Source of the DNA: a virus
Direction: 5' to 3' (one strand)
IMG/VR virus record: IMGVR_UViG_3300039018_000309
Span: 1-24,123 of that record
Length of the DNA stretch: 24,123 nucleotides
The notes beneath the pieces are model-generated. The model made no database searches and was not told the origin of the DNA. It saw only the letters and a list, made by a program, of their open reading frames with translations. A program made the position numbers and the translations under genes. Positions within the stretch are counted from its first letter, which is position 1. Each line of letters opens with the position of its first letter. This document shows positions 13,313 to 24,123 of the stretch, piece by piece.

Positions 13313-14347
13313 TCAGGCAACGACGGTGGCGCACAGGAACCCAGAGACTGGAGCAACCAGTTCCGAGGTGCTGTTGTCAATGACGCGACCTTCAATACGG
13401 CGATCCTTCGGATCGTCCCAGTTCTCAACTGTCATATCTTCAAAGGCGAAGATTTGGCAAGTGCTGAACGAGGTCGAACCTTCGACACCAATCAAGCCAC
13501 CCGGACGGCTCACGAATACGGCAGAATTGCCGTACACGAACGAACGAGTCGCCGAGGATGCGCCCTTGCGGGTCGTAATCTTGACCGAGTCGTCAACAAC
13601 AATGGAAACGCCGAACAGATTCGGCGGGAGGCCGTAACGGCTGAAGATGTCAGAGCCTTGCAAGAACGGCAAGGCGGCTGGGTAGTTCTTCACATAGTTA
13701 CGGATTTCGTCCGCCTGTGAGATGATATTTGCAACGGTCGGACTGATGACCATGCAAATGTCTTCACTACGAACCGCGCCACCAGTAGCAAGCGAGATGC
13801 GCTGGAGCGCGTCTTGGATGCTTGCCTGAATGACGTTAGTGCTTGAACTCGTCCAAACGCCCTTCCAACCACTAGCAGTAGCCTGATAGTTGCCAGCTGC
13901 GGTGAACGCAGTCACGGCTGCGCTGTTGGTCAGCGCGGTAGCCGTTCGCATTGAGCGAGCGGTCATAGCGAGCTGTGCCTTGCTGCGAGCGTGCTGGGCA
14001 ACGATGTCCCACGCGGCTTGCTTGACTGTCTCGTTCGGAATGTAGAACGGGAAGGCAAAGCGTTGAGCCGTGAAGGTAACGAAATCATGCTCGTTCATCT
14101 TGCCAACCGGGCGGTCGTTGCCAAGAGGCCAAGCGAATTCGTTAACGTCGGTCACGCGCACGTTGTCGTCCGAATTCAGACGCAGGTAATACCCCGTCTG
14201 CTGATTGCAGGCAACGATTTGAGCGTAACGGGTAATGGCAAACGAATTCACCGCACGGGTGAACTCAACTTGGAGAGCGCCAGTTGCGAGCGCGTTGGTG
14301 GAGGGGACGTAAGTGTTTAGACCGCCTCCGACTGTTACATAGGCCAT
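13313..14347 (-). CDS. Major capsid protein
   Basis: The product has 344 residues and a near-perfect ribosome binding site, the strongest of the operon for a full-length gene. The N-terminus YVTVGGGLNTYVPSTNALATG is followed by a helix and arm region (VEFTRAVNSFAITRYAQIVA) with a gap of polar sequence. An HK97-fold-like spine helix sits near residues 108-130 (VKQAAWDIVAQHARSKAQLAM). Next come a DALQRIS...ICMVISPTVANII segment of P-domain type, SIVVDDSVKI and RSFVYGNSAVFVSRPGG. Size, position after protease/scaffold and decoration genes and the 'D-D-S-V... vYg..a.f' pattern identify it. The N-terminal peptide is echoed in the protease-scaffold gene. Confidence 0.88.
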   Translation of the reverse strand: MAYVTVGGGLNTYVPSTNALATGALQVEFTRAVNSFAITRYAQIVACNQQTGYYLRLNSDDNVRVTDVNEFAWPLGNDRPVGKMNEHDFVTFTAQRFAFPFYIPNETVKQAAWDIVAQHARSKAQLAMTARSMRTATALTNSAAVTAFTAAGNYQATASGWKGVWTSSSTNVIQASIQDALQRISLATGGAVRSEDICMVISPTVANIISQADEIRNYVKNYPAALPFLQGSDIFSRYGLPPNLFGVSIVVDDSVKITTRKGASSATRSFVYGNSAVFVSRPGGLIGVEGSTSFSTCQIFAFEDMTVENWDDPKDRRIEGRVIDNSTSELVAPVSGFLCATVVA

Positions 14348-14780: not shown

Positions 14781-15395
14781 TTAGCCCTTCATCCGGGCGT
14801 TAATTGCCTTTGCAAACTCTTCTGGTTTGCCAGCAAATTGCTTGACTAATGAGCCAACGTCACCAATGTCCATGCCACGCGGCAGGGCTGCTCGGCTCAT
14901 ATCAATCTTGGTTCCGATTGGGTCGCGGGCGAACAGGTCGCGCCATGACTCAAGGAGAGCGACTGGGTTACGGGAGGCCTGCAACTGACCAACAAGCGCC
15001 TCGCGCTGTGAGTCTGGGATGCGGTAGCCCTCCTGCTCCATGATCTCCACTTCGCGCTCAAACTTCTCGCGCTTCAACTCGGCTTCAAGACGGGCGAACC
15101 GCGACTTGAGGCGAGCGTTTTCTGACCGAAGAGCGTAGGTTGAACGACGGCTGGCAATGACGGATTCGTCTTCCATTTCGTCCTCTTCGCCTGCCTCAAC
15201 GTCATGGCTCTCGATGTCGATGTGGACTTGACCGTCTTCCTCGGCCATCTCGTCCTTCATCTCATCGTCGTCCGCAGCCATCTCGTCCTTATCGTCCGAG
15301 TCGTCCGCGAACTTCTTCTTCATCATGTCCGAGAGTTCGGAGATGGCGCACTTCATGGCCTCCAACTCCTCGCGCATATCGTCGCTGGATGCCAT
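14781..15395 (-). CDS. Nested scaffold protein from internal start
   Basis: Codon 295 of the protease gene is an ATG (15393-15395) with AAGGAGGAGG at 15410-15401, 5-8 nt upstream, a much better site than that of the full gene. Starting here gives 204 residues (MASSDDMREELEAMKCAISE onward) with the acidic stretch, coiled coil and C-terminal end but no protease. This is the same arrangement as lambda C/Nu3 and Mu I/Z, where an in-frame internal start supplies excess scaffold. Confidence 0.8.
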   Translation of the reverse strand: MASSDDMREELEAMKCAISELSDMMKKKFADDSDDKDEMAADDDEMKDEMAEEDGQVHIDIESHDVEAGEEDEMEDESVIASRRSTYALRSENARLKSRFARLEAELKREKFEREVEIMEQEGYRIPDSQREALVGQLQASRNPVALLESWRDLFARDPIGTKIDMSRAALPRGMDIGDVGSLVKQFAGKPEEFAKAINARMKG

Positions 15396-16277
15396 GCTGG
15401 CCTCCTCCTTGGTAGTCGTCGGGATAAAGGTATTGAGTCCACCACCAGCCCCGACGAGGTCATGGTTGGACTTAGAACAAGTGATCTTCTCGCCCTTGCG
15501 GGTGAAATGGGTATCCGGGAGGGGACGGCGCGGGGTTTCACGCCCGAGCAGCGCCACCTCGGAGAGGTGATTTGAGCCTGACCAAATCTCAGCCGACCGA
15601 CGCGGGAAGGCGTTGGTGGCAATGAATCGGTCGAAAATATCGCGGTTTACTTCCATGTCGCCCACAATGTACCCAATTCCATCGCGTTCTTCGTAGGAAA
15701 TTGTGGGGAATCGACCGACAGCGGACTTCGGTTCCTTGCCGTCCTTCTCGTGCATGATGACGAGGCGAGGAAACGAACCGCGAGCCATGTGCTTGCGCGT
15801 CGATGCAACGATGTCCTTGAGTCGCTTGTTGTTGAACCGCTTCAGCTCTGGATCCGCCTCCCCGTCATCTATGGCTGGGTCAAACGCCATGAACAGTTCA
15901 ACGCGCTCAATCATGACCTTGTCGCCGTCTTCGGCAACGGTGTGGGATGTCTTTGCGTTCACGGTCTTCTCCTCTTTGCGGTCTAGTTCCTTGTCCTTGC
16001 GCTCCGCCCACGCCTTGCCCGCATCGCCGCCCCACAGGAGCCACGCGATATAGCCAGCGGAATCCTTGCCCCAGCCTTCGCCCTGCTTGTCCACCTCATG
16101 CCGAGCGAAGTAGGACACCATCCGGCGCACGGTTTCGGGTGAAAGGTTCGCCCGGTTCTTGATGTCACGCGCCCGCGCCACGCCGATCTCCGTGCCACCC
16201 CTGCCGTGCTTCTCGCGCAGCTCAAGGCCACGGGCAGCATTGGATGCCATCTCGGTCGTTGGCTTCAGGTCAATCAT
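14781..16277 (-). CDS. Mu gpI-type head maturation protease fused to scaffold
   Basis: The product has 498 residues in three parts. Residues about 12-95 carry a basic domain with ELREKHGRGGTEIGVARARD and RRMVSYFARHEVDK, then AGYIAWLLWGGDAG. I recall this as a small domain found beside or inside phage capsid proteases. Residues about 120-265 are the protease: ERVELFMAFDP, RLVIMHEKDG (His176), GYIVGDMEVN and FPRRSAEIWSG (Ser228), then VALLGRETPR. His and Ser are the likely catalytic residues of the Mu gpI/prohead serine protease class. Residues 295-498 are the scaffold: a very acidic stretch, a basic coiled coil (about 385-425) and a C-terminal capsid-binding end. The start overlaps the upstream stop (ATGA). 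An internal start gives the scaffold alone. Confidence 0.85.
   Translation of the reverse strand: MIDLKPTTEMASNAARGLELREKHGRGGTEIGVARARDIKNRANLSPETVRRMVSYFARHEVDKQGEGWGKDSAGYIAWLLWGGDAGKAWAERKDKELDRKEEKTVNAKTSHTVAEDGDKVMIERVELFMAFDPAIDDGEADPELKRFNNKRLKDIVASTRKHMARGSFPRLVIMHEKDGKEPKSAVGRFPTISYEERDGIGYIVGDMEVNRDIFDRFIATNAFPRRSAEIWSGSNHLSEVALLGRETPRRPLPDTHFTRKGEKITCSKSNHDLVGAGGGLNTFIPTTTKEEASMASSDDMREELEAMKCAISELSDMMKKKFADDSDDKDEMAADDDEMKDEMAEEDGQVHIDIESHDVEAGEEDEMEDESVIASRRSTYALRSENARLKSRFARLEAELKREKFEREVEIMEQEGYRIPDSQREALVGQLQASRNPVALLESWRDLFARDPIGTKIDMSRAALPRGMDIGDVGSLVKQFAGKPEEFAKAINARMKG
15401..15410 (-). promoter_or_regulatory. Internal Shine-Dalgarno for nested scaffold
   Basis: AAGGAGGAGG on the minus strand, inside the protease frame where it encodes Lys-Glu-Glu-Ala. 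Two overlapping GGAGG-type cores sit 8 and 5 nt from the internal ATG. Confidence 0.8.
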
Positions 16278-17632
16278 GGGGTGGTCAGGGTCTGAATCTG
16301 GGCATCAGACAACCGCGTAGGGAAATATTTGAGGGTGCGGATACTGTTGTTGAGCATGACACTTGTATCGGTAATGCTTGTCCCATTTATAGATGGGCCG
16401 CCAATACTTAGGAACGTCGGGGCAACACTAAACCCTAGCGTGTTGGTAGCGACCGTCCCGCCGTTCAGGCACAGGCTTGTAGCGGTACTGGCGTAACTAA
16501 ATGCGCCCTTCGTCAATGCGTTGGCTGTCAGGCTGTTTGCTGTTGTGACGGTCGCTACTGCTAGGTAGTCTGCTAGCCGCAGCGTGAGCGCGGAAGGGGT
16601 CTGGTACAAATGCAAGTGCTGGTCATCTACATCACTCGTTGCTATCACAGAGCGGGCGGTCGTACTTGACGCGCTACCGTACCAATTAGAAACAAACGTA
16701 CCCGTTGTCCCGCCCGTGTACCAAGAACTAAAGTTTGTCCCGGCGGCAATGATGGCGGTATCTACTGCTCGCGTGACTGTACTTGCACCTGTAAGAATTG
16801 TTGAAGATGCAACGGAACCTGTTTCTAGTTGTGCGCCCCAAATGTAGTTTGTGCTTGCGGCAGATGTATCAAGGTTGGGATAAACGGTTAGAAGTACACT
16901 TGATTGACCACTAACCGTAGTAAATACCACCGACACACGCACCCAACGGTCAGTTGGGATGTTGGAAAATTGTGATCCGAATCCCGATGCGTTGTTAATT
17001 GTTACAGCAGGATCGTTACAACTACCCACCGTAGTCAGCGCACTTCCGCCGTTAAACGGAGCCAATCGGAAATATGTTGCGCCGCCAGTTCCGGCGCGTA
17101 CCCACATACTGTAGGTGTATTGCTGCAATGCTGAAACTGTTTCGGCTGTAGCAAGGCGCTGAAATGTAATATTACTTGCCTTAAAGATACTTGTTCCGGT
17201 GAGCGAACCGCCGTCAGGGCCATCAATGCGAGCGACTGGGTTTGGCCCAGAAGATTGAGGTACTGAGTTAATAGAAATAGCGTTTCCGATTCCCCAATCG
17301 CCTCCCCAGCAGTATTGACCCTGCCGACACAAATTCGTTGTTGGGGCTTCTAAGAGCAAGCCTTTGGCAACCCCTCCAACGAAATCAAACCGAGGCGCTT
17401 GTGGTTGCCCGGCTGGTACTGTCTCCACATAGCCAAGGCTGTTGATGAACGTAGCCCGAGCCGTAGCGTCTGCGCGGCTAAACGTGATACGCGAGTCAAG
17501 CGTCCCGCTCATCGTTGTGAAGTCAAGGGACAAGGTCGAGCCGTCGCCAGTTTCAGCCACGCGACCCATCAGCTTGCTCGCACGAGACGAGCCGCTGATC
17601 CGTGACATCCTTGGACGATTCGCTCGATTCAT
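16274..17632 (-). CDS. Carbohydrate-binding/LamG-like virion protein
   Basis: The product has 452 residues and overlaps the protease start by four bases. After a basic N-terminus comes TFSRADATARATFINSLGYVETVP with PRFDFVGGVAKGLLLEAPTTNLC. This is a motif widespread in phage structural proteins that precedes carbohydrate-binding jelly rolls. Residues about 125-270 look like a CBM_4_9-type domain (YTYSMWVRAGTGGATYFRLA, TDRWVRVSVVFTT, NYIWGAQLETGS). Residues 290-452 look like a concanavalin/LamG-type domain ending NSIRTLKYFPTRLSDAQIQTLT. Such proteins usually bind surface or mucus glycans. Its place inside the head block, between MuF and protease genes, suggests a head-attached fibre rather than a tail part, but this is inferred from order only. 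Confidence 0.72.
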   Translation of the reverse strand: MNRANRPRMSRISGSSRASKLMGRVAETGDGSTLSLDFTTMSGTLDSRITFSRADATARATFINSLGYVETVPAGQPQAPRFDFVGGVAKGLLLEAPTTNLCRQGQYCWGGDWGIGNAISINSVPQSSGPNPVARIDGPDGGSLTGTSIFKASNITFQRLATAETVSALQQYTYSMWVRAGTGGATYFRLAPFNGGSALTTVGSCNDPAVTINNASGFGSQFSNIPTDRWVRVSVVFTTVSGQSSVLLTVYPNLDTSAASTNYIWGAQLETGSVASSTILTGASTVTRAVDTAIIAAGTNFSSWYTGGTTGTFVSNWYGSASSTTARSVIATSDVDDQHLHLYQTPSALTLRLADYLAVATVTTANSLTANALTKGAFSYASTATSLCLNGGTVATNTLGFSVAPTFLSIGGPSINGTSITDTSVMLNNSIRTLKYFPTRLSDAQIQTLTTP

Positions 17633-18472
17633 TTACAGGTTAGCCCAGAAGGTTCCCATGTCTGTTGCTGCGCTTGCCTTGAATTGCGCGGTGACGTAGG
17701 AAGCCCCGGCAACGTCAACCATTGCGTAGGCGGGTTCCACGTTTGCACCAGCCGCCGTAGCGGGCGAGTACAGGTTGGCCGCAGGGGTTCCGCTGACCTG
17801 CGTGATGCTTGAGAAGGTGCGCGTATTGAGAGCGCCGTCCATTGGGTAGTTTGGGACGGTTCCGCTCGTAAAGCCGAGCGTGAAGTCAGCGAGGACGGTT
17901 GGCATATACCAGAACGAAGAAACATTTGACCGCGTGTAGGTCACTCCGGTCGGAGTGCCAGAGGTCGTTGTAATCGCTGCACCGCCAAGCGTTGCCGAGA
18001 GTTGGAACGTGCCTGATCCGTTCGTGGCAATGATGTAGTAGGTGGTCGGGCTTGAATACGCCGGGACGGTAATTGTTCCCGTTCCGCCAAATGTTCCGGC
18101 AATAGTGACGGCCTGCCCGACCGCTAGGGTAGGGTTCGCGTTGCAGGTGAAGTTACCTGCGGTGTCGGCAATGGTGACACCCGCAAGCGTGCCAGCGGTA
18201 TCGAGGTACTTACGCCATCCGAGGAGGCGCATACCGATGGCGCTTTGCGCGGAGGTTGCCGAGATCATGAACGGCATGACGTACAGGAGGGATGGGTTCG
18301 TTCCGCTCACCGATGACGTATTGACATCCCACAAGAGGACGTTCCCAGTTCCTGAAGCGCCGCTAGAAGGGGCAGCTTGCAGGAGAATGGACGAGGCGGT
18401 GGCGTAAGCCGACGGAGCCTGCAAGGCTGTGGCGCGGCGGAAGTTCTCTTGTGCTGTGTTGATGACGGGCAT
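17633..18472 (-). CDS. Virion-associated beta protein with an inserted module
   Basis: The product has 279 residues, with a good AGAGGAG site 8-9 nt before the ATG, which abuts the upstream TAA. The N-terminal 95 residues (FRRATALQAPSAYATASSIL..., LLYVMPFMISATSAQSAIGM) and the C-terminal 95 (FWYMPTVLADFTLGFTSG..., EPAYAMVDVAGASYVTAQFK) read as one structural domain. Between them, about residues 100-178, sits a Thr/Gly-rich module (GVTIADTAGNFTCNANP..., YYIIATNGSGTFQLSATLGG, GVTYTR). I recall this as a recurrent add-on in phage structural proteins. The fourth residue onward (VINTAQENFRRA) suggests an intracellular assembly role. Likely a head accessory or fibre base protein; no family name. 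Confidence 0.6.
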   Translation of the reverse strand: MPVINTAQENFRRATALQAPSAYATASSILLQAAPSSGASGTGNVLLWDVNTSSVSGTNPSLLYVMPFMISATSAQSAIGMRLLGWRKYLDTAGTLAGVTIADTAGNFTCNANPTLAVGQAVTIAGTFGGTGTITVPAYSSPTTYYIIATNGSGTFQLSATLGGAAITTTSGTPTGVTYTRSNVSSFWYMPTVLADFTLGFTSGTVPNYPMDGALNTRTFSSITQVSGTPAANLYSPATAAGANVEPAYAMVDVAGASYVTAQFKASAATDMGTFWANL

Positions 18473-19687
18473 TTACAGTTCTCCTCTGCGCTTCATGTCG
18501 AGCGCGATTGCGACCGCTTGGTCTTGTGGCTTGCCTTCTTTGATGAGCTTGGCGATCTTCGCGCCGACGGCTGGGTCAGCGGCGGACATGATCTTCAGCC
18601 CTGCCTTCTGCTCCTCGGTCTGGTCGCGGGTCATGCGGGTCTTCGCGCCGGGGCGGGAGGATCGAGGTTTCAATGCAAACTTTGAAGCGTAACTACTTGA
18701 CAACACTTCCTGCTCAATCGCCTTGGCATCAAGACTTTGGTTTGTCATCCGATGTGATTTTGGCAGGTTCCCGTTTGTTTGAATGCGAACGGTTTCGCCT
18801 GAGTATTTCTTGAACCGCGCAATCTTGTTGCCATTTGAGTCAACATCAAACCCAAGAAACTCCGCACGAAGTTCTGGCATATCAACCTTCATCGCAAACG
18901 CGTCCTTCGCGCCGGGGCGGGAGGACAGGGTCATCCCTAATTTCCGCGCTCTCTTTTGCAACCCCCAAATCTCTGTCGATGTTTCTTTGAAAGCAATTTC
19001 CGATTTCCTATAAATTGCGTTTTCCTTATCTAGAAGTCGTTTTAGTTTTTCCCTCTTTTTCATATCAGGCGTGGTATAAGTTTTTGAGGTCAAATCATAT
19101 ATTCTTGGAGTTGCAGCTTTAATATAAGCCCCCAGTTCCCTATAACGCGGCAACAAAGTATTCAGCTTGCGTTGAATTGTCGCTTTCTCTTCATCCAGAG
19201 CAGCGGCGCGTGCGGCTGCGCGTGCGGCTGCCGCTGCCTTCTCTTGGGCGATTTCTTCCTTGCGGGCGGGCGAACCCCTGAGTGGGGCTGGGCCGAATCC
19301 AAACTCTGCCTTCGCGCCAGCGCGGGCAAAGTTATAGTCATTTAATACTTCTATGGATTCACTAATTCCGGTTGCTGCTTCATCAAAAATTGATCGATAT
19401 TCTTCAGCGTCAACATCGCCATTCACCGTTCGCGATTTTACATAAGCCAATTTTTTTGCTAAAGCAGCCGCAAGTTCCCTCATTCCGGACATGGCATCGT
19501 TGTAATCCGATTCAATTCTCTTGAGTACCGCTACATTCTTTTTGGTCAATAGCGCCTTTTTGCGTACTGCTGCTGCTGCCTTCTCTTGGGCGATTTCCGC
19601 CTTGCGTGCAGGTGACCCCTTTAATGGGGCTGGCCCCATTGCTGCAAATCCAAGACGGGCGGCGATTTCTTTGCCTGTGTTGCTCAT
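18473..19687 (-). CDS. Modular lysine/alanine-rich protein A, GAKAKF-repeat family
   Basis: I start at MSNTGKEIAARLGFAAMG (ATG 19685-19687) because two other proteins here share that leader. An ATG 9 nt upstream has GGAG nearby and one at 19711 is also open, so the start is uncertain. The 404 residues contain two coiled-coil modules (about 19-119 and 132-250), each opening with GPAPL(K/R)GSPARK(A/E)EIAQEKAAAA. A small globular module follows (265-340; ELRAEFLGFDVDSNGNKIAR, ETVRIQTNGNLPKSHRM). The C-terminal helical module ends LIKEGKPQDQAVAIALDMK. Modules are separated by ARAGAKAEF (121-129), SRPGAKDAF (256-264) and SRPGAKTRM (344-352). It lies between MuF and the accessory virion genes. Function unknown; an internal or ejected virion protein is possible. 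Confidence 0.7.
   Translation of the reverse strand: MSNTGKEIAARLGFAAMGPAPLKGSPARKAEIAQEKAAAAVRKKALLTKKNVAVLKRIESDYNDAMSGMRELAAALAKKLAYVKSRTVNGDVDAEEYRSIFDEAATGISESIEVLNDYNFARAGAKAEFGFGPAPLRGSPARKEEIAQEKAAAAARAAARAAALDEEKATIQRKLNTLLPRYRELGAYIKAATPRIYDLTSKTYTTPDMKKREKLKRLLDKENAIYRKSEIAFKETSTEIWGLQKRARKLGMTLSSRPGAKDAFAMKVDMPELRAEFLGFDVDSNGNKIARFKKYSGETVRIQTNGNLPKSHRMTNQSLDAKAIEQEVLSSSYASKFALKPRSSRPGAKTRMTRDQTEEQKAGLKIMSAADPAVGAKIAKLIKEGKPQDQAVAIALDMKRRGEL
19223..19297 (-). repeat. Direct repeat copy 2 (GPAPLRGSPARK module head)
   Basis: Encodes residues 131-155 of protein A and matches residues 14-40 (19568-19648) at nearly every position, with several synonymous differences. It marks the start of the second coiled-coil module. 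Confidence 0.85.
19568..19648 (-). repeat. Direct repeat copy 1 (GPAPLKGSPARK module head)
   Basis: Encodes residues 14-40 of protein A, directly after the shared leader. The paired copy is at 19223-19297. Confidence 0.85.
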
Positions 19688-19692
19688 GCCGT

Positions 19693-19705
19693 GCATCGTA
19701 GCGAT
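19693..19705 (-). repeat. 13-bp flank repeat upstream of protein A
   Basis: The sequence ATCGCTACGATGC (minus strand) lies just before the chosen start of protein A. An identical copy is at 23940-23952, between terminase and protein B. Shared 5' flank suggests that the two genes arose by duplication. Confidence 0.7.
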
Positions 19706-19721
19706 CTCCATTGCGATTTAT

Positions 19722-20804
19722 TTATGCGTTTACGAAACCGGGGTCAGGAACTTGGCGCGTGTCCACGAGCCGCTGACGCGCCCCGTTGTGCTTGGCAATA
19801 GCGGCTGGGTCAATCGTCCCGTTCGGGCGCGTCCAACGCTCGCGCAAAGCCTCGGCGGCGGGGACGGGAATGACGGCGCAGCGGCAGTTGAACCCAAGCG
19901 GCGGGGCAATTCCAAGGCGGTCAAAGTCTGCCATCGTCCCAACGTAGCCGTCAAAGGCTCGGTGTGTGTCCCGCGTGCGCGGGTCTCTGGTGGCGCTGAA
20001 TTGCACCAGCGGGACGAATGCCTGTACCCGCTCATCCCGTAGGACTTCGGCGCTGCCTTCGGTCATGGCGCGGTTCGTGTTCGTCCGCAGGACGGTTTCA
20101 AGGCGGGAAGCCGTCAACCCCGTCCCGGTCATCATCTGGGCGGTGGTCACGAAGTCGCCAAGGTTCATGGTCTTGATGAGCTTGCCGACCACGCTCTTGC
20201 TGGGGCGCTCCTCGATGACCTGCGCGATCAGTTCCTGCACCATCCGCGCTTGTGCGACAGGCATGGCGGTCACGAAGAAGGTGGTATCAACGATCCGCTT
20301 GACCCGGGAGATAGCCCCTTGCGGCCCTCTTGTAACACCACGTAACAACGAATCAAGGATCGGGGACTGCTTGCGGAGGTCAGGAAGGGCGTTTTCGCGC
20401 TCATGGTCGGTGACATCCCCGGCGCTGGCGGCGGCCGCCTTGACGAGTAAATCCCAATCGGCGCGGGTGATCGGGACGCGCTTACGGAACCAGCCCGTGA
20501 TCGGAGCCATCCACTTCGTCCCGAAACCCTCAAGGGAAATCGGCACATCCCGGTCAAACTTGACCGCGTCCCCGTCGTTGAGCATCCCTTCTACAGCCTC
20601 GTCTGGGATCTTGGCGGTATCGACCGTATCCCGCGCACCGAACAGCCACGATGCCATCAGGAGCGCCGCAGTCGCCTCATGGAACTCCGCCCACGCGGGG
20701 AGGGGATCTTCGCCCCGGATCTGAGCCGCGACCGCCCTGCGGTACGCCTGTTGCGACTGGCGCAGAACCTTGCGAAGGTGCTTGTCGAGGTCGGCTTTGT
20801 TCAT
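19722..20804 (-). CDS. MuF-type minor head protein (Phage_Mu_F)
   Basis: The product has 360 residues and overlaps the portal stop by four bases (ATGA). The C-terminal MuF core is clear: helix ETVLRTNTNRAMTEG (about 236-250), then FSATRDPRTRDTHRAFDGYV with His281 and Asp285, and APPLGFNCRCAVIPV with the NCRC at 306-309. These residues are the usual signature of the family, which sits on or near the portal and is packaged in small copy number. The N-terminal 200 residues are helical and include the stretch AKIPDEAVEGMLNDGDAV. No toxin or other C-terminal effector is fused after the MuF core, which ends about 50 residues later. Confidence 0.88.
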   Translation of the reverse strand: MNKADLDKHLRKVLRQSQQAYRRAVAAQIRGEDPLPAWAEFHEATAALLMASWLFGARDTVDTAKIPDEAVEGMLNDGDAVKFDRDVPISLEGFGTKWMAPITGWFRKRVPITRADWDLLVKAAAASAGDVTDHERENALPDLRKQSPILDSLLRGVTRGPQGAISRVKRIVDTTFFVTAMPVAQARMVQELIAQVIEERPSKSVVGKLIKTMNLGDFVTTAQMMTGTGLTASRLETVLRTNTNRAMTEGSAEVLRDERVQAFVPLVQFSATRDPRTRDTHRAFDGYVGTMADFDRLGIAPPLGFNCRCAVIPVPAAEALRERWTRPNGTIDPAAIAKHNGARQRLVDTRQVPDPGFVNA

Positions 20805-22294
20805 CGCTTGCGCTTGCGGACGGCGGCTACCTTCGGTGCTTCAGGGGCTGGCTCGTCACCCTCGCTCTCGTTGCCCTGCCCAAGCATGGCGGAGAGCGGG
20901 TTACTCGATGCGCCCGCGCTGCCTGCGGCTTGACCGCCGAGAACAGATTCCCCGTCTTCCGGGTCGGACAGCCCGAGGAGGTCGCGCACTTCGCGCTCGC
21001 TGACGCGGCCGCCCATCGAAATGAACGTCTGAATTGCTTCCAGCCGCTCCTTGGGGTTCGGGCGCTCAGGGGCGAACACGAACCGAATGCGGCGGGCATC
21101 CTCTTCGGAGGCTCCGAGCATCCCAGCAATGATGCGAACGAGGTCGGTGGTCAGGCTCTCCGCGAGGCAATCCGCGTGATAGCGGATTACGCGGGAAAGG
21201 GTATCGGCGTGGAGGTCAGCAACGCCTGACCCCATACCCGTCCCGCCAGCCTCGCTAGAGAGCGACTGACCGAGGATTGCTTCCTTGAGTTTCCCGGAAA
21301 GCCAGTTGACCAGCTCCATAAAGATCTGGGCGCGTCCACCGTTTGCGTCCTTGATGTCGATGTCGTACATACTCTCCGTCGGACTGATGCGGGGCAGGAC
21401 GACCGAGTTGTCATTGACCAAGTTCTGCAAGATGGTCATCATCTCGCTCTTGGCTGCATCGTTCCCTGCTGGGTAGTACCCAACGCGGATGCCGAGGGCG
21501 TACCGCTCCACATAGGCGGCGGCGTTCTGTAGGACTTCCTGTTTCAGGAGCCAGATGTACCAGCAGACATCTCGCGCACCAACGCCACGGTAGACCGTCT
21601 CGGCGCTGTTCGGGTCGATGAAGTTTGGCGCGGTGGTAAAGACGCGGTGCAGGACAATGGCGCGGCGTTCGTTGTCGTCGAACAGGTGGACGAGCGAGTC
21701 GAAGCCAAGGTCGGTGACGGAGGCCTGATTGATGTAGGCGCTACCAACGCGCATCGCCACGTTCCCGGTCTGGTCAAAGGCAAGGGTATCGGAGGCGAGC
21801 GGTAGCCATTCGCGGATGCGTACCCCAAGGCGCGGGTCGCGGTCGTAGACCACGTTCACGGCGCTGCACCCGTACCAAACGGCTTCGTGCAGGGAGCGGA
21901 ACATATCGCTTCGGCGCGGGGCTGCGCCAATGATCTCGGCAATGCGGTCGGCGAGCTTGACGAGGCGCGGGTCTGATTCGTCGTCGGAAAGTACGTTCCA
22001 CTCCAACCCGGCAAGGGTCACGAGCAGGGATCGCAGCACGCCCTCAATGTCCGCGTCTGCTCGCATCATCGCCTGATAGTTCGGGTCAAGGCGGTAGGCG
22101 AGGCTAGAGTTCCGCAGCATCAGGCTGGCGGTGCGGAAGAACGTCCGCTGCACTTCCACGGGCATGGCGAGCGGCCCGGTTAACCCGCGATCAATCGGAG
22201 GCGGCAGCGGCTTGCGCGGTCGCTTGGTTGGTGGCAAGCCTGCGCCGGGGATCGACTGACGTTGCGAAAGCGGGTTGTTGATCGGGTCGGGCAT
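20801..22294 (-). CDS. Portal protein, Mu gp29-like (DUF935)
   Basis: The product has 497 residues. Its ATG overlaps the stop of the 80-residue gene by one base (TGATG). The family pattern is clear. The early part has YQAMMRADADIEGVLRSLLVTLAGLEWNV. A central WYGCSAVNVVYDRDPRLGVRI follows. In the C-terminal half come LKEAILGQSLSSEAGGTGMGSG and ADLHADTLSRVIRYHADCLAESL, then the RIRFVFAPERPNPKERLEAI segment. The C-terminus is acidic then basic (EAPKVAAVRKRKR). The protein forms the dodecameric DNA gate of the head. The N-terminal 35 residues are proline-rich (PPTKRPRKPLPPPIDRG). Confidence 0.9.
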   Translation of the reverse strand: MPDPINNPLSQRQSIPGAGLPPTKRPRKPLPPPIDRGLTGPLAMPVEVQRTFFRTASLMLRNSSLAYRLDPNYQAMMRADADIEGVLRSLLVTLAGLEWNVLSDDESDPRLVKLADRIAEIIGAAPRRSDMFRSLHEAVWYGCSAVNVVYDRDPRLGVRIREWLPLASDTLAFDQTGNVAMRVGSAYINQASVTDLGFDSLVHLFDDNERRAIVLHRVFTTAPNFIDPNSAETVYRGVGARDVCWYIWLLKQEVLQNAAAYVERYALGIRVGYYPAGNDAAKSEMMTILQNLVNDNSVVLPRISPTESMYDIDIKDANGGRAQIFMELVNWLSGKLKEAILGQSLSSEAGGTGMGSGVADLHADTLSRVIRYHADCLAESLTTDLVRIIAGMLGASEEDARRIRFVFAPERPNPKERLEAIQTFISMGGRVSEREVRDLLGLSDPEDGESVLGGQAAGSAGASSNPLSAMLGQGNESEGDEPAPEAPKVAAVRKRKR

Positions 22295-22536
22295 CAGGAT
22301 TTCTCGTATGCAAGGGCTTTGATCTGGTCTACCGTCATGCGCTTAGAAACGCCGTTCGGCTGTTTCACTTCGTAGGACGTAGCAAAGGCTGGCGGGTTGG
22401 TCTGCCCGCTATGGAAGTCAAGCGTATACCCGCGCTGCTTGAGCGCCGCTTCGGCTTGGTCGATGGTCAGCTTGCGCTTGCTTGTCGGCATGGCGAAGAT
22501 GCCCAGTCGGCGCATGATGTCCTTACGCTGGCTCAC
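22294..22536 (-). CDS. 80-residue protein with the shared RLG(F/I) leader
   Basis: A GTG overlapping the upstream stop (GTGA at 22533-22536) starts MSQRKDIMRRLGIFAMPTSK, which matches the leaders of proteins A and B. The rest is one small alpha/beta module: TIDQAEAALKQRGYTLDF (helix), FATSYEVKQPNGVSKRM (beta hairpin), TVDQIKALAYEK (helix). TIDQA...RGYTL and TVDQI frame the hairpin. It is coupled to both protein B and the portal. Function unknown. It looks like a single free-standing module of the kind strung together in A and B, without the GAKAKF spacer. Confidence 0.7.
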   Translation of the reverse strand: MSQRKDIMRRLGIFAMPTSKRKLTIDQAEAALKQRGYTLDFHSGQTNPPAFATSYEVKQPNGVSKRMTVDQIKALAYEKS

Positions 22537-23912
22537 GCCTTCGCCTTTGCGGCGGGGCGGGCGAAACCCTTGTATGGCTTAGACAGATCCAAGATTTGAA
22601 CCCGGAACGAATGCCAGCCCGCTGCGGCTGCACGCTTCTTGACATCTTCCATCTGGGCAGGAGTCTTGGCTTGCGTTGAGAGAACCTGCTGGTGAATGGC
22701 ATCCGTCTCGCCCTTTGGCAATCCCCAAAGCACATATTCCTTTTCAAACTTCGCCTTTACGCCGGGGCGGGAGGCGGTGGTACTAGGAATACGCCACGCG
22801 CCACCGCTGTATCGAAGTCCTTGGTCGTACGCCTTTTGGTATCCGCGTTCGTACCCTTCAATTCCATTCCAAGATTCTTCGTGCGTAGTGTCGTACCGCT
22901 CCCAGCCGCTCCCTTGATTTACCTCTACGGCTATATACCCGTTGTGCAGTTTTTTCGTTCGGAACTGAGGCTTTGCAAACTTTGCTTTTGCGCCCGTGCG
23001 GGAGGACTTGGCCTTCTTCAGTTCGTCGTACACCTCGCTACCAATTCGCTTGTAGGTTCCTTCGCCAAGCACCGAGTCAATCGCCTGCGGAACCGACAAG
23101 CCCTTGGATACCAGCGTAAGAATCTTGTCGCTGATTGCCGCGTTGTTGCGGATCTGATCCAGCGCGGCATCGGCAAACTTCGCCTTCGCGCCTGCGCGGG
23201 AGAACGGAGACTTCGACGCGCCAAGGATCATCGACTGGGACTTCACGGCGATCCGCAGTTGCTCAACGTAATGCTCGATGTCCTTTGCGCTGGTCGCGGA
23301 GTTGATGACCTTGATGGCGTTGGTGACGTATGCGTCAAGAGCGGCGAGGCGCTCCTTGACCTTGTCGCGCATAAACTTGTAGTTGGTGATTGCGTCCTTA
23401 GCTGCGGCTTTTGCCTCGGAGACTTGCTTGCGATACTCCGGCGACTTGGGATCTGCTGGGTCGGCGGTCAACGCGGTAGCCGCGTAGCCAACGCGAGACA
23501 AAAAGCCCATCTCTGCCTTTGCGCCGAAGCGCGAGAAATTACCTGACCATTTAGGGTCTAATGTAATCCCTAGAGATTTTGCGTCAGCCTGATTTTCTTG
23601 AATCATCTGCCGCGCTCGTCGGAGATAAGCAACCTGATCCTTCATTTTCTTATTTTCAGCATCAAGCTTTAGGCTTAATTGCGCTTTCCTTTTGATATCA
23701 CGCGTATTTTTTATTTCGGCGGTCAATCTTTCAATTTCGTCTTTTATAAATCTCATATTGGAACTGAGATTGCGCATCTCCCCCGCCTCATACCGAATGT
23801 TGGTTTCAATTCTTCGTTGATTTTCCTTCATCTCAGACGGGGAGAGTCCGAACTTCGCCTTCGCGCCTTGCGCCGCGAATCCCAAACGCTTCTCGATGTC
23901 TTGCTTGCTCAT
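22533..23912 (-). CDS. Modular lysine/alanine-rich protein B, GAKAKF-repeat family
   Basis: I start at MSKQDIEKRLGFAAQGAKAK (ATG 23910-23912, AAAGGA about 5 nt upstream); the frame extends to 23990 but over the terminase end. The 459 residues hold six copies of the spacer: AAQGAKAKF (13-21), SRFGAKAEM (127-135), SRAGAKAKF (238-246), SRTGAKAKF (304-312), SRPGVKAKF (381-389) and ARPAAKAKA (451-459, the C-terminus). They bound two coiled-coil modules (22-126, 136-237). They also bound three small modules: 247-303 with KGLSVPQAIDSVLGEGTYKR; 313-380 with HNGYIAVEVNQGSGWERYD and GAWRIPST; and 390-450 with YVLWGLPKGETDA and AAGWHSFRV. The protein is very rich in Lys and Ala. It lies between terminase and portal. 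Function unknown. Confidence 0.72.
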   Translation of the reverse strand: MSKQDIEKRLGFAAQGAKAKFGLSPSEMKENQRRIETNIRYEAGEMRNLSSNMRFIKDEIERLTAEIKNTRDIKRKAQLSLKLDAENKKMKDQVAYLRRARQMIQENQADAKSLGITLDPKWSGNFSRFGAKAEMGFLSRVGYAATALTADPADPKSPEYRKQVSEAKAAAKDAITNYKFMRDKVKERLAALDAYVTNAIKVINSATSAKDIEHYVEQLRIAVKSQSMILGASKSPFSRAGAKAKFADAALDQIRNNAAISDKILTLVSKGLSVPQAIDSVLGEGTYKRIGSEVYDELKKAKSSRTGAKAKFAKPQFRTKKLHNGYIAVEVNQGSGWERYDTTHEESWNGIEGYERGYQKAYDQGLRYSGGAWRIPSTTASRPGVKAKFEKEYVLWGLPKGETDAIHQQVLSTQAKTPAQMEDVKKRAAAAGWHSFRVQILDLSKPYKGFARPAAKAKA

Positions 23913-23939
23913 GTGGTTCCTTTGGTGAGTAGTCCACGA

Positions 23940-23952
23940 GCATCGTAGCGAT
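23940..23952 (-). repeat. 13-bp flank repeat upstream of protein B
   Basis: Identical to 19693-19705. It begins one base after the terminase stop codon and lies 28 nt before the protein B start. Confidence 0.7.
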
Positions 23953-24123
23953 TCAGCCGAACATTCTGCGCTTGACTGCGCGAGAATCAAACATCCTGCT
24001 TGTATCGGTCGCCACCGTGACCGCGCCGCCCGAGGTCACCACCGTCCCGCTTGACGCTGCCGTGCAGAGGTCAACAACGCAATCAACCGTATCGTCGTGG
24101 CTACCAGCGGGGAAGGCGAGCAT
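23953..24123 (-). CDS. Terminase large subunit, C-terminal end (partial)
   Basis: The frame is open from the right edge to TGA at 23953-23955, 56 residues. The sequence MLAFPAGSHDDTVDCVVDL contains the FP-x-G-x-(H/K)-DD-x-VD motif that carries the last catalytic aspartates of the terminase nuclease domain. About 30 more residues follow and end VKRRMFG. The ATG at the edge is probably internal. The gene continues outside the window; it powers DNA packaging through the portal two genes downstream. Confidence 0.88.
   Translation of the reverse strand: MLAFPAGSHDDTVDCVVDLCTAASSGTVVTSGGAVTVATDTSRMFDSRAVKRRMFG

Follow-up and report, generated by a model that had tools for sequence, protein, structure and literature searches.

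Phage protein mosaics are common, and how their junctions stay in frame is usually unseen. Two long proteins encoded on opposite sides of the portal and MuF-type genes of an uncultured bacterial virus, here called A and B, raise this question in concrete form, as both are divided into segments by copies of one short spacer. What are these proteins, and does the spacer matter as a peptide, as DNA, or as both? Because the junction is readable, short, and conserved at the DNA level, a single sequence suffices to put the in-frame exchange of domains to a direct test. The window referred to throughout is the whole stretch analyzed, positions 1 to 24,123 of IMG/VR record IMGVR_UViG_3300039018_000309 (24,123 bases, one strand).

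The head genes and the anatomy of A and B

The minus strand carries, in order, a terminase end, B, a small gene, a Portal_Mu gene, a MuF-type gene, A, and two variable genes, after which come three further genes: one probably for a protease/scaffold protein, a small one associated with the capsid, and one probably for the major capsid protein. The portal (20801 to 22294, minus strand; Pfam Portal_Mu, 9.6e-45) and the MuF-type minor head protein (19722 to 20804, minus strand; Phage_Mu_F, 2.9e-14) are the pair that marks a Mu-type head module. The product of 14781 to 16277 (minus strand) is probably a protease/scaffold protein, judging by its position; no Pfam protease family matched it, even at loose limits. 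On the plus strand the window begins inside a Sipho_Gp157 gene (1 to 462), and the early region lies outside the record.

Protein A (412 amino acids [aa]; 18473 to 19711, minus strand) is a cassette polyprotein encoded downstream of MuF. The initial annotation had placed its end at 19687; the open reading frame (ORF) in fact reaches 19711, and 19687 is the internal methionine of MSNTGKEIAARLGFAA, which is still a plausible start and is in line with the many relatives that start at MHDMSNTR. All parts of A lie on the minus strand. The leader MSNTGKEIAARLGFAA (19640 to 19687), of the type I..RLGFAA, is common to B, the small gene, and a 129-aa gene in relatives. It is followed by headpiece 1, GPAPLKGSPARKAEIAQEKAAAA (aa 26 to 48; 19568 to 19636), cassette 1, a helical coil (19328 to 19567), spacer 1, ARAGAKAEF (aa 129 to 137; 19301 to 19327), headpiece 2, GPAPLRGSPARKEEIAQEKAAAA (aa 140 to 162; 19226 to 19294), and cassette 2, a long coiled coil (18926 to 19225) that is predicted to be helical with a pLDDT of about 96 and has its homolog in cassette 1 of B. 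Spacer 2, SRPGAKDAF (aa 264 to 272; 18896 to 18922), contains the exact 18-mer TCCCGCCCCGGCGCGAAG at 18905 to 18922, and spacer 3, SRPGAKTRM (aa 352 to 360; 18632 to 18658), contains it at 18641 to 18658; between them lies the beta-rich cassette 3 (18662 to 18895), which has 39% identity to a stretch of ORF140 of Flavobacterium phage MaF61. A fixed C-terminal module of three predicted helices (18476 to 18631), matched across part of its length by phrog_2423, completes the protein. Mean pLDDT over the predicted structure of A is 69.

The three spacers of the SR/AR-x-GAK type that had been noted in A are thus all present, and the reported 21-bp identity between 18641 to 18661 and 18905 to 18925 is exact. 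The proposed internal duplication of A holds for the 23-aa GPAPL headpiece, which is repeated, and fails for the coil modules as wholes (coil 1 versus coil 2, z = 0.5; 602 of 2,000 shuffles reach the score). The similarity suggested between coil 2 of A and coil 1 of B is borne out: with the GPAPL and GAKA motifs taken out beforehand, 27 of 81 aligned residues are identical (z = 6.0), and none of 2,000 heptad-preserving shuffles reaches the score. The outcome that was to refute this similarity, statistics no better than those of shuffled coils outside the two motifs, thus did not occur.

Protein B, the cassette polyprotein upstream of the portal, occupies a listed ORF at 22533 to 23990 (minus strand) with a likely start at 23912. 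Its leader, MSKQDIEKRLGFAA (23871 to 23912), adjoins a first spacer, QGAKAKF (23850 to 23870), and all further parts are likewise on the minus strand: cassette 1, the coiled coil homologous to cassette 2 of A (23535 to 23849); SRFGAKAEM (23508 to 23534); cassette 2, helical and also found within A-type polyproteins of other lineages (23202 to 23507); SRAGAKAKF (23175 to 23201); cassette 3 (23004 to 23174); SRTGAKAKF (22977 to 23003); cassette 4 (22773 to 22976); SRPGVKAKF (22746 to 22772); and cassette 5 (22563 to 22745), whose relatives include stand-alone phage proteins of 65 to 68 aa as well as cassettes from several further lineages. The last element of B is a spacer, ARPAAKAKA (22536 to 22562). 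The predicted structure of B has a mean pLDDT of 65.

The small gene between B and the portal (22294 to 22536, minus strand; 80 to 283 aa in relatives) has a leader, RKDIMRRLGIFA, of the same type as A and B. Among the window copy and those of L010, L018, L019, and L023, it takes a simple form of 80 aa, a form with an insert after RLGIFA (175 to 195 aa), and a form with a C-terminal extension (about 270 aa). The I..RLGFAA leader is carried by 92 polyproteins, by 20 small genes, and by 18 further spacer-less ORFs of the same neighborhood, and this wide occurrence suggests that it is a common address.

Relatives and the cassette pool

Searches of viral contigs returned 9 loci with A as the query, 32 with B, and 58 with MuF, and all relatives of A and B that we found are metagenomic. 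Among cultured phages MuF had no match and the best portal identity was about 23 to 28%; in bacterial genomes, no prophage relative was found by portal, and the spacer led to one contig only, itself a phage contig placed in a Nitrospiraceae bin. In the closest group, portals are 98 to 100% identical and MuF proteins 92 to 98% identical, yet A and B are patchworked. The plan of A in relatives is a fixed leader, interchangeable cassettes, and the fixed C-terminal module; that of B is a leader followed by cassettes, usually with a bare spacer at the end. In both, the spacer (S/A)R-x-G-(A/V)-K-x-x-(F/M) stands between cassettes, which number one to nine segments per polyprotein (mostly three to five), with a median internal cassette length of 76 aa.

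Over all loci, 129 distinct polyproteins yielded 535 segments, which fall into 202 families at 40% identity, a count made with stricter coverage because single-linkage clustering had lumped some families. The pool of cassettes is large and open: 117 families were seen once and 32 twice (Chao1, 416, a rough estimate). Most of the approximately 200 families are without known relatives, and their make-up is mixed alpha/beta. Pfam gave no match above cutoff in A, B, or ten relatives; PHROGs searches of ten large relatives returned only short unnamed PHROGs and the fixed tail of A; and Foldseek searches of the predicted structures of A and B against PDB and BFVD gave no match at an E value of 0.001 or better. 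The median dN/dS over 78 cassette pairs is 0.08; the cassettes are thus under purifying selection and are working proteins. The pool constitutes a large, mostly unannotated set of small phage proteins in a place where injected antidefense proteins would be expected, and it can serve as a screening list.

Individual cassettes can be followed outside the two polyproteins. Cassette 5 of B occurs in polyproteins of up to 1,286 aa, in polyproteins with other spacer types (SRPGQPERF), and fused to a possible metallopeptidase in L227/L228 (a weak Pfam match); its stand-alone relatives include a 65-aa ORF and the 68-aa gp88 of Rhodobacter phage RcSalem, an accessory protein. Cassette 3 of A has its homolog within MaF61 ORF140 (PQ858689), which is annotated as a putative prohead scaffold. 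This long protein contains 25 (L/I)xE-(A/S/G/N) motifs where 5.5 are expected, and two of them flank the stretch homologous to the A cassette.

According to the initial annotation, A and B draw on a common pool of parts. The relatives agree with it: A, B, and polyproteins of other lineages reuse the same cassettes, each time differently ordered. Within the closest group the sharing is real but partial, as 18 of 57 families occur in A only, 33 in B only, and 6 in both.

Two observations concern the edges of this group. The contig OMJK01000020.1 (L199), binned as Nitrospiraceae, comes from a phage of this group and carries variant spacers (SRPGKPDTF); its link to that host is uncertain. A 36-aa cysteine-containing cassette, ACWEGYEAVGTKKKDGKTVPNCVPKK (in B of L020 and in others), is present in many cyanophage proteins of unknown function.

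Cassettes are exchanged between genomes with seams at the spacer

The MuF DNA just upstream of A could be aligned in 200 pairs of loci. One of these pairs had the same cassette string, and A loci 97 to 98% identical upstream had no cassettes in common. Exchange is also visible from the side of the cassettes: 272 pairs with at least 90% identity are shared across polyproteins, and at least one neighbor differs in 250 of these and both neighbors in 160. The seams were located with pairs of at least 85% identity flanked by unrelated neighbors. On the left (82 pairs), identity is 0.2 to 0.3 upstream of the spacer and 0.9 to 0.99 within the cassette; on the right (62 pairs), high identity persists to the next spacer and then fades within about 27 bases. 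Identity between cassette copies thus jumps from approximately 25% to approximately 95% at the spacer. Cassettes are exchanged between genomes, and the exchange has its seams where the spacers are.

The spacer is conserved as DNA

With up to three mismatches, the 18-mer TCCCGCCCCGGCGCGAAG has six matches in the window, all within A or B, where 0.07 are expected by chance. When viral contigs were scanned with a 24-base version, 106 stretches matched; every listed locus has the match in frame within a long ORF that nearly always adjoins portal and/or MuF, and the portals range from 40 to 99% identity to that of the window. Because such a scan favors exact spacers, codon statistics were drawn from loci found by protein. 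In the near group (147 spacers), the dominant codons are TCC CGC CCC GGC GCG AAG, and synonymous identity at the first five positions of the spacer is 0.65 to 0.90, compared to 0.20 to 0.31 expected from cassette codon use. The peptide pattern used to recognize spacers itself requires R and K, so the invariance of these two residues is not counted as evidence. Between near and far loci, synonymous identity at identical residues is 0.83 in the spacer versus 0.36 to 0.49 in the portal and 0.38 to 0.48 in MuF. Spacer codons are therefore conserved across lineages far beyond those of portal and MuF, and the spacer behaves as a DNA joint.

The suggestion that the DNA of the spacer has sufficient length for recombination is borne out, both by the switch of identity at the spacer and by codons that were kept while neighboring genes lost synonymous identity; together with the recurring cassettes, these relatives support the reading first made from the window. 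We give an even chance to the broader proposition that the spacer is a DNA-encoded standard joint of 18 to 24 bp, placed in one frame at every junction of head cargo genes, at which annealing recombinases would freely exchange domains among viruses, a prokaryotic counterpart of exon shuffling that would draw on several hundred effector cassettes in an open pool. The standard DNA spacer at every junction would be its novel core, domain mosaicism itself being well described, and the literature searched contains no account of such a spacer or of these cassettes.

Recombinases and other explanations of the mosaics

Annealing recombinases are encoded by most of the 13 near-complete relatives: 10 records carry ERF and 1 more carries RecT, while the remaining records, G009 and G010, have neither. 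ERF and RusA, the latter also found in one relative examined, lie in the early region of near-complete relatives. Rad52-like phage recombinases, including one ERF, recombine short, diverged stretches (PMC3945230), and ERF may be the enzyme that acts on these spacers.

Other origins of the mosaics have to be weighed against exchange by annealing. It is very unlikely that the cassettes are shuffled by a site-specific recombinase dedicated to this task or by a diversity-generating retroelement: a short, well-conserved DNA element at every junction is what such a system would have, but none of the 13 near-complete records contains an integrase (Phage_integrase), a reverse transcriptase, or a Resolvase match above cutoff, the spacer copies within a record are all on one strand, and the variation goes by blocks. 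Still less credible, and in our estimation hardly worth entertaining, is that the mosaics were produced by metagenome assembly at short repeats. The metagenomic origin of all members would allow it, as would one 35-kb contig (G003; L200/L201) with two versions of portal, MuF, and A at its ends. Against it, 44 distinct polyproteins are letter-identical in at least two loci (some of which are overlapping loci of one contig), some of the identical polyproteins come from different metagenomes (L014 and L015, L020 and L021), and the same cassettes reappear with diverged, lineage-specific sequence. A more serious contender, although still an unlikely one, holds that the spacer is merely a favored peptide (a protease site or a flexible tether) and that recent exchange, along with codon habit, left its DNA identical as a side effect. 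Transfer of cassettes across lineages is indeed seen and is able to bring spacer DNA along, as cassette 5 of B is, at about 92% identity, the first cassette of an A-type protein in L214 to L218, where the portal is 78% identical; identity of the spacer DNA may thus stem from exchange itself rather than from selection for a joint. Peptide variants also exist (SRPGQPERF in L219 and L220). However, spacers beside diverged cassettes retain their codons (near-far pairs at 30 to 60% and 70 to 90% protein identity, few in number; 0.7 to 1.0 in the spacer versus 0.25 to 0.54 synonymous identity in the cassette), and even unrelated spacers agree at 0.81.

A proposed role as head cargo

On balance we favor, with some reserve, a reading in which A and B are modular polyproteins that the virion carries as cargo and probably ejects, and in which cassettes exchanged in frame at a standard seam provide their diversity. 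Each would consist of a short common leader and a run of small, independently folding cassettes with the standard spacer between them. As the spacer is kept as DNA, pairing in a common reading frame would be open to every combination of two spacers, and ERF/RecT-type annealing recombinases could swap, add, or delete whole cassettes with the frame kept. We infer the subsequent steps of packaging, cleavage, and ejection as follows: the leader would take the polyproteins into the head near the portal, the prohead protease would possibly cut them at the spacers, and the cassettes would be delivered with the DNA and act on the host early in infection, for example, against its defenses. Taken together, purifying selection, the leader, the homology to the MaF61 scaffold, and the precedent of the T4 internal proteins make head cargo delivered with DNA the most likely role of A and B.

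The nearest known class is that of the polyvalent proteins, multidomain proteins encoded near virion genes, some fused to MuF, for which delivery into the host alongside the DNA has been predicted (PMC5512222); their domains are freely recombined and have stand-alone relatives, and release by a peptidase has been proposed (Iyer et al. 2017, PMC5512222). A and B have in common with them the multidomain plan (one to nine segments, mostly three to five, compared to the 2 to 15 domains per polypeptide of that class), the virion and DNA transfer gene context beside portal and MuF, and stand-alone relatives of domains, and the B-type cassette joined to the possible metallopeptidase in L227/L228 is a further likeness. 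The known disparate domains that characterize the class were not recognized by Pfam in A, B, or the ten relatives. Unlike polyvalent proteins, A and B consist of small unassigned domains, contain no embedded peptidase, and have one DNA-conserved spacer at all junctions.

Internal proteins of T4 are packed in the head and ejected, and some block restriction (PMC9026906, PMC12373910). Proteins IPI to IPIII, with their capsid targeting sequence, resemble A and B in that a short common leader is carried by a variable set of several small head proteins; the leader common to A, B, and neighboring genes is a candidate for such a head-targeting sequence. They differ in being separate genes whose products are cut after L/I-x-E, the site of gp21 (PMC9026906), whereas A and B fuse many domains per gene, are joined by a different spacer, and are only presumptively packaged; SRxGAKxxF contains no L/I-x-E site and so does not match the cleavage signal of a T4-type prohead protease. 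MaF61 ORF140 is like A in the one common cassette, its length, and its many regularly placed short motifs, but these are L/I-x-E motifs, the protease type is T4-like, and neither genome size nor gene order relates MaF61 to the phage studied here. Ongoing shuffling of phage protein fragments is described in work on domain mosaicism (Smug et al. 2023, PMC10684548) and is the likeness to A and B; that study stresses tail fibers, lysins, and other classes and, in the passages searched, describes no repeated spacer as a common joint.

A and B could instead be internal scaffold or DNA-condensing head proteins, their cassettes being interchangeable filler with no role in host conflict. Several cassettes are simple coiled coils, B terminates in a bare basic spacer, and T4 IPIII has an assembly role (PMC9026906), all of which suit this explanation. 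We nevertheless regard it as improbable. The approximately 200 families are unrelated to one another, have a mixed alpha/beta make-up, and are each under strong purifying selection; together with the near-total turnover between close genomes and the stand-alone accessory relatives, this fits effectors better than filler.

Further observations on neighboring genes

The two genes downstream of A (16274 to 18472), one of which has a Laminin_G_3 match, vary strongly among genomes with near-identical portals. The end copies on the 35-kb contig G003 are about 95% identical, with A differing by one cassette (m04), and look like two strains joined in assembly. The N terminus of the capsid protein (13313 to 14347), VGGGLNTYVPSTN, is echoed within the protease/scaffold protein as GAGGGLNTFIPTTT; the echo is seen in relatives too, and in L199, and is possibly a shared docking or cleavage peptide. 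The N-terminal domain of approximately 85 aa of the same protease/scaffold protein, MASNAARGLELREKHGRGGTEIG..AWAERK, is found in other lineages (L100, L116, and L223) in a cassette polyprotein upstream of the portal and forms part of a portal fusion in L199 and L219. The MuF gene of the window is uninterrupted by the 276-aa insert seen in the 636-aa MuF ORFs of L010, L014, L042, L044, and L031, where it lies exactly at the conserved GFN|CRC site. This insert has cysteine as its first residue, ends in ..VVSN before a cysteine, and gives weak Intein_splicing and HINT matches; it is a probable intein.
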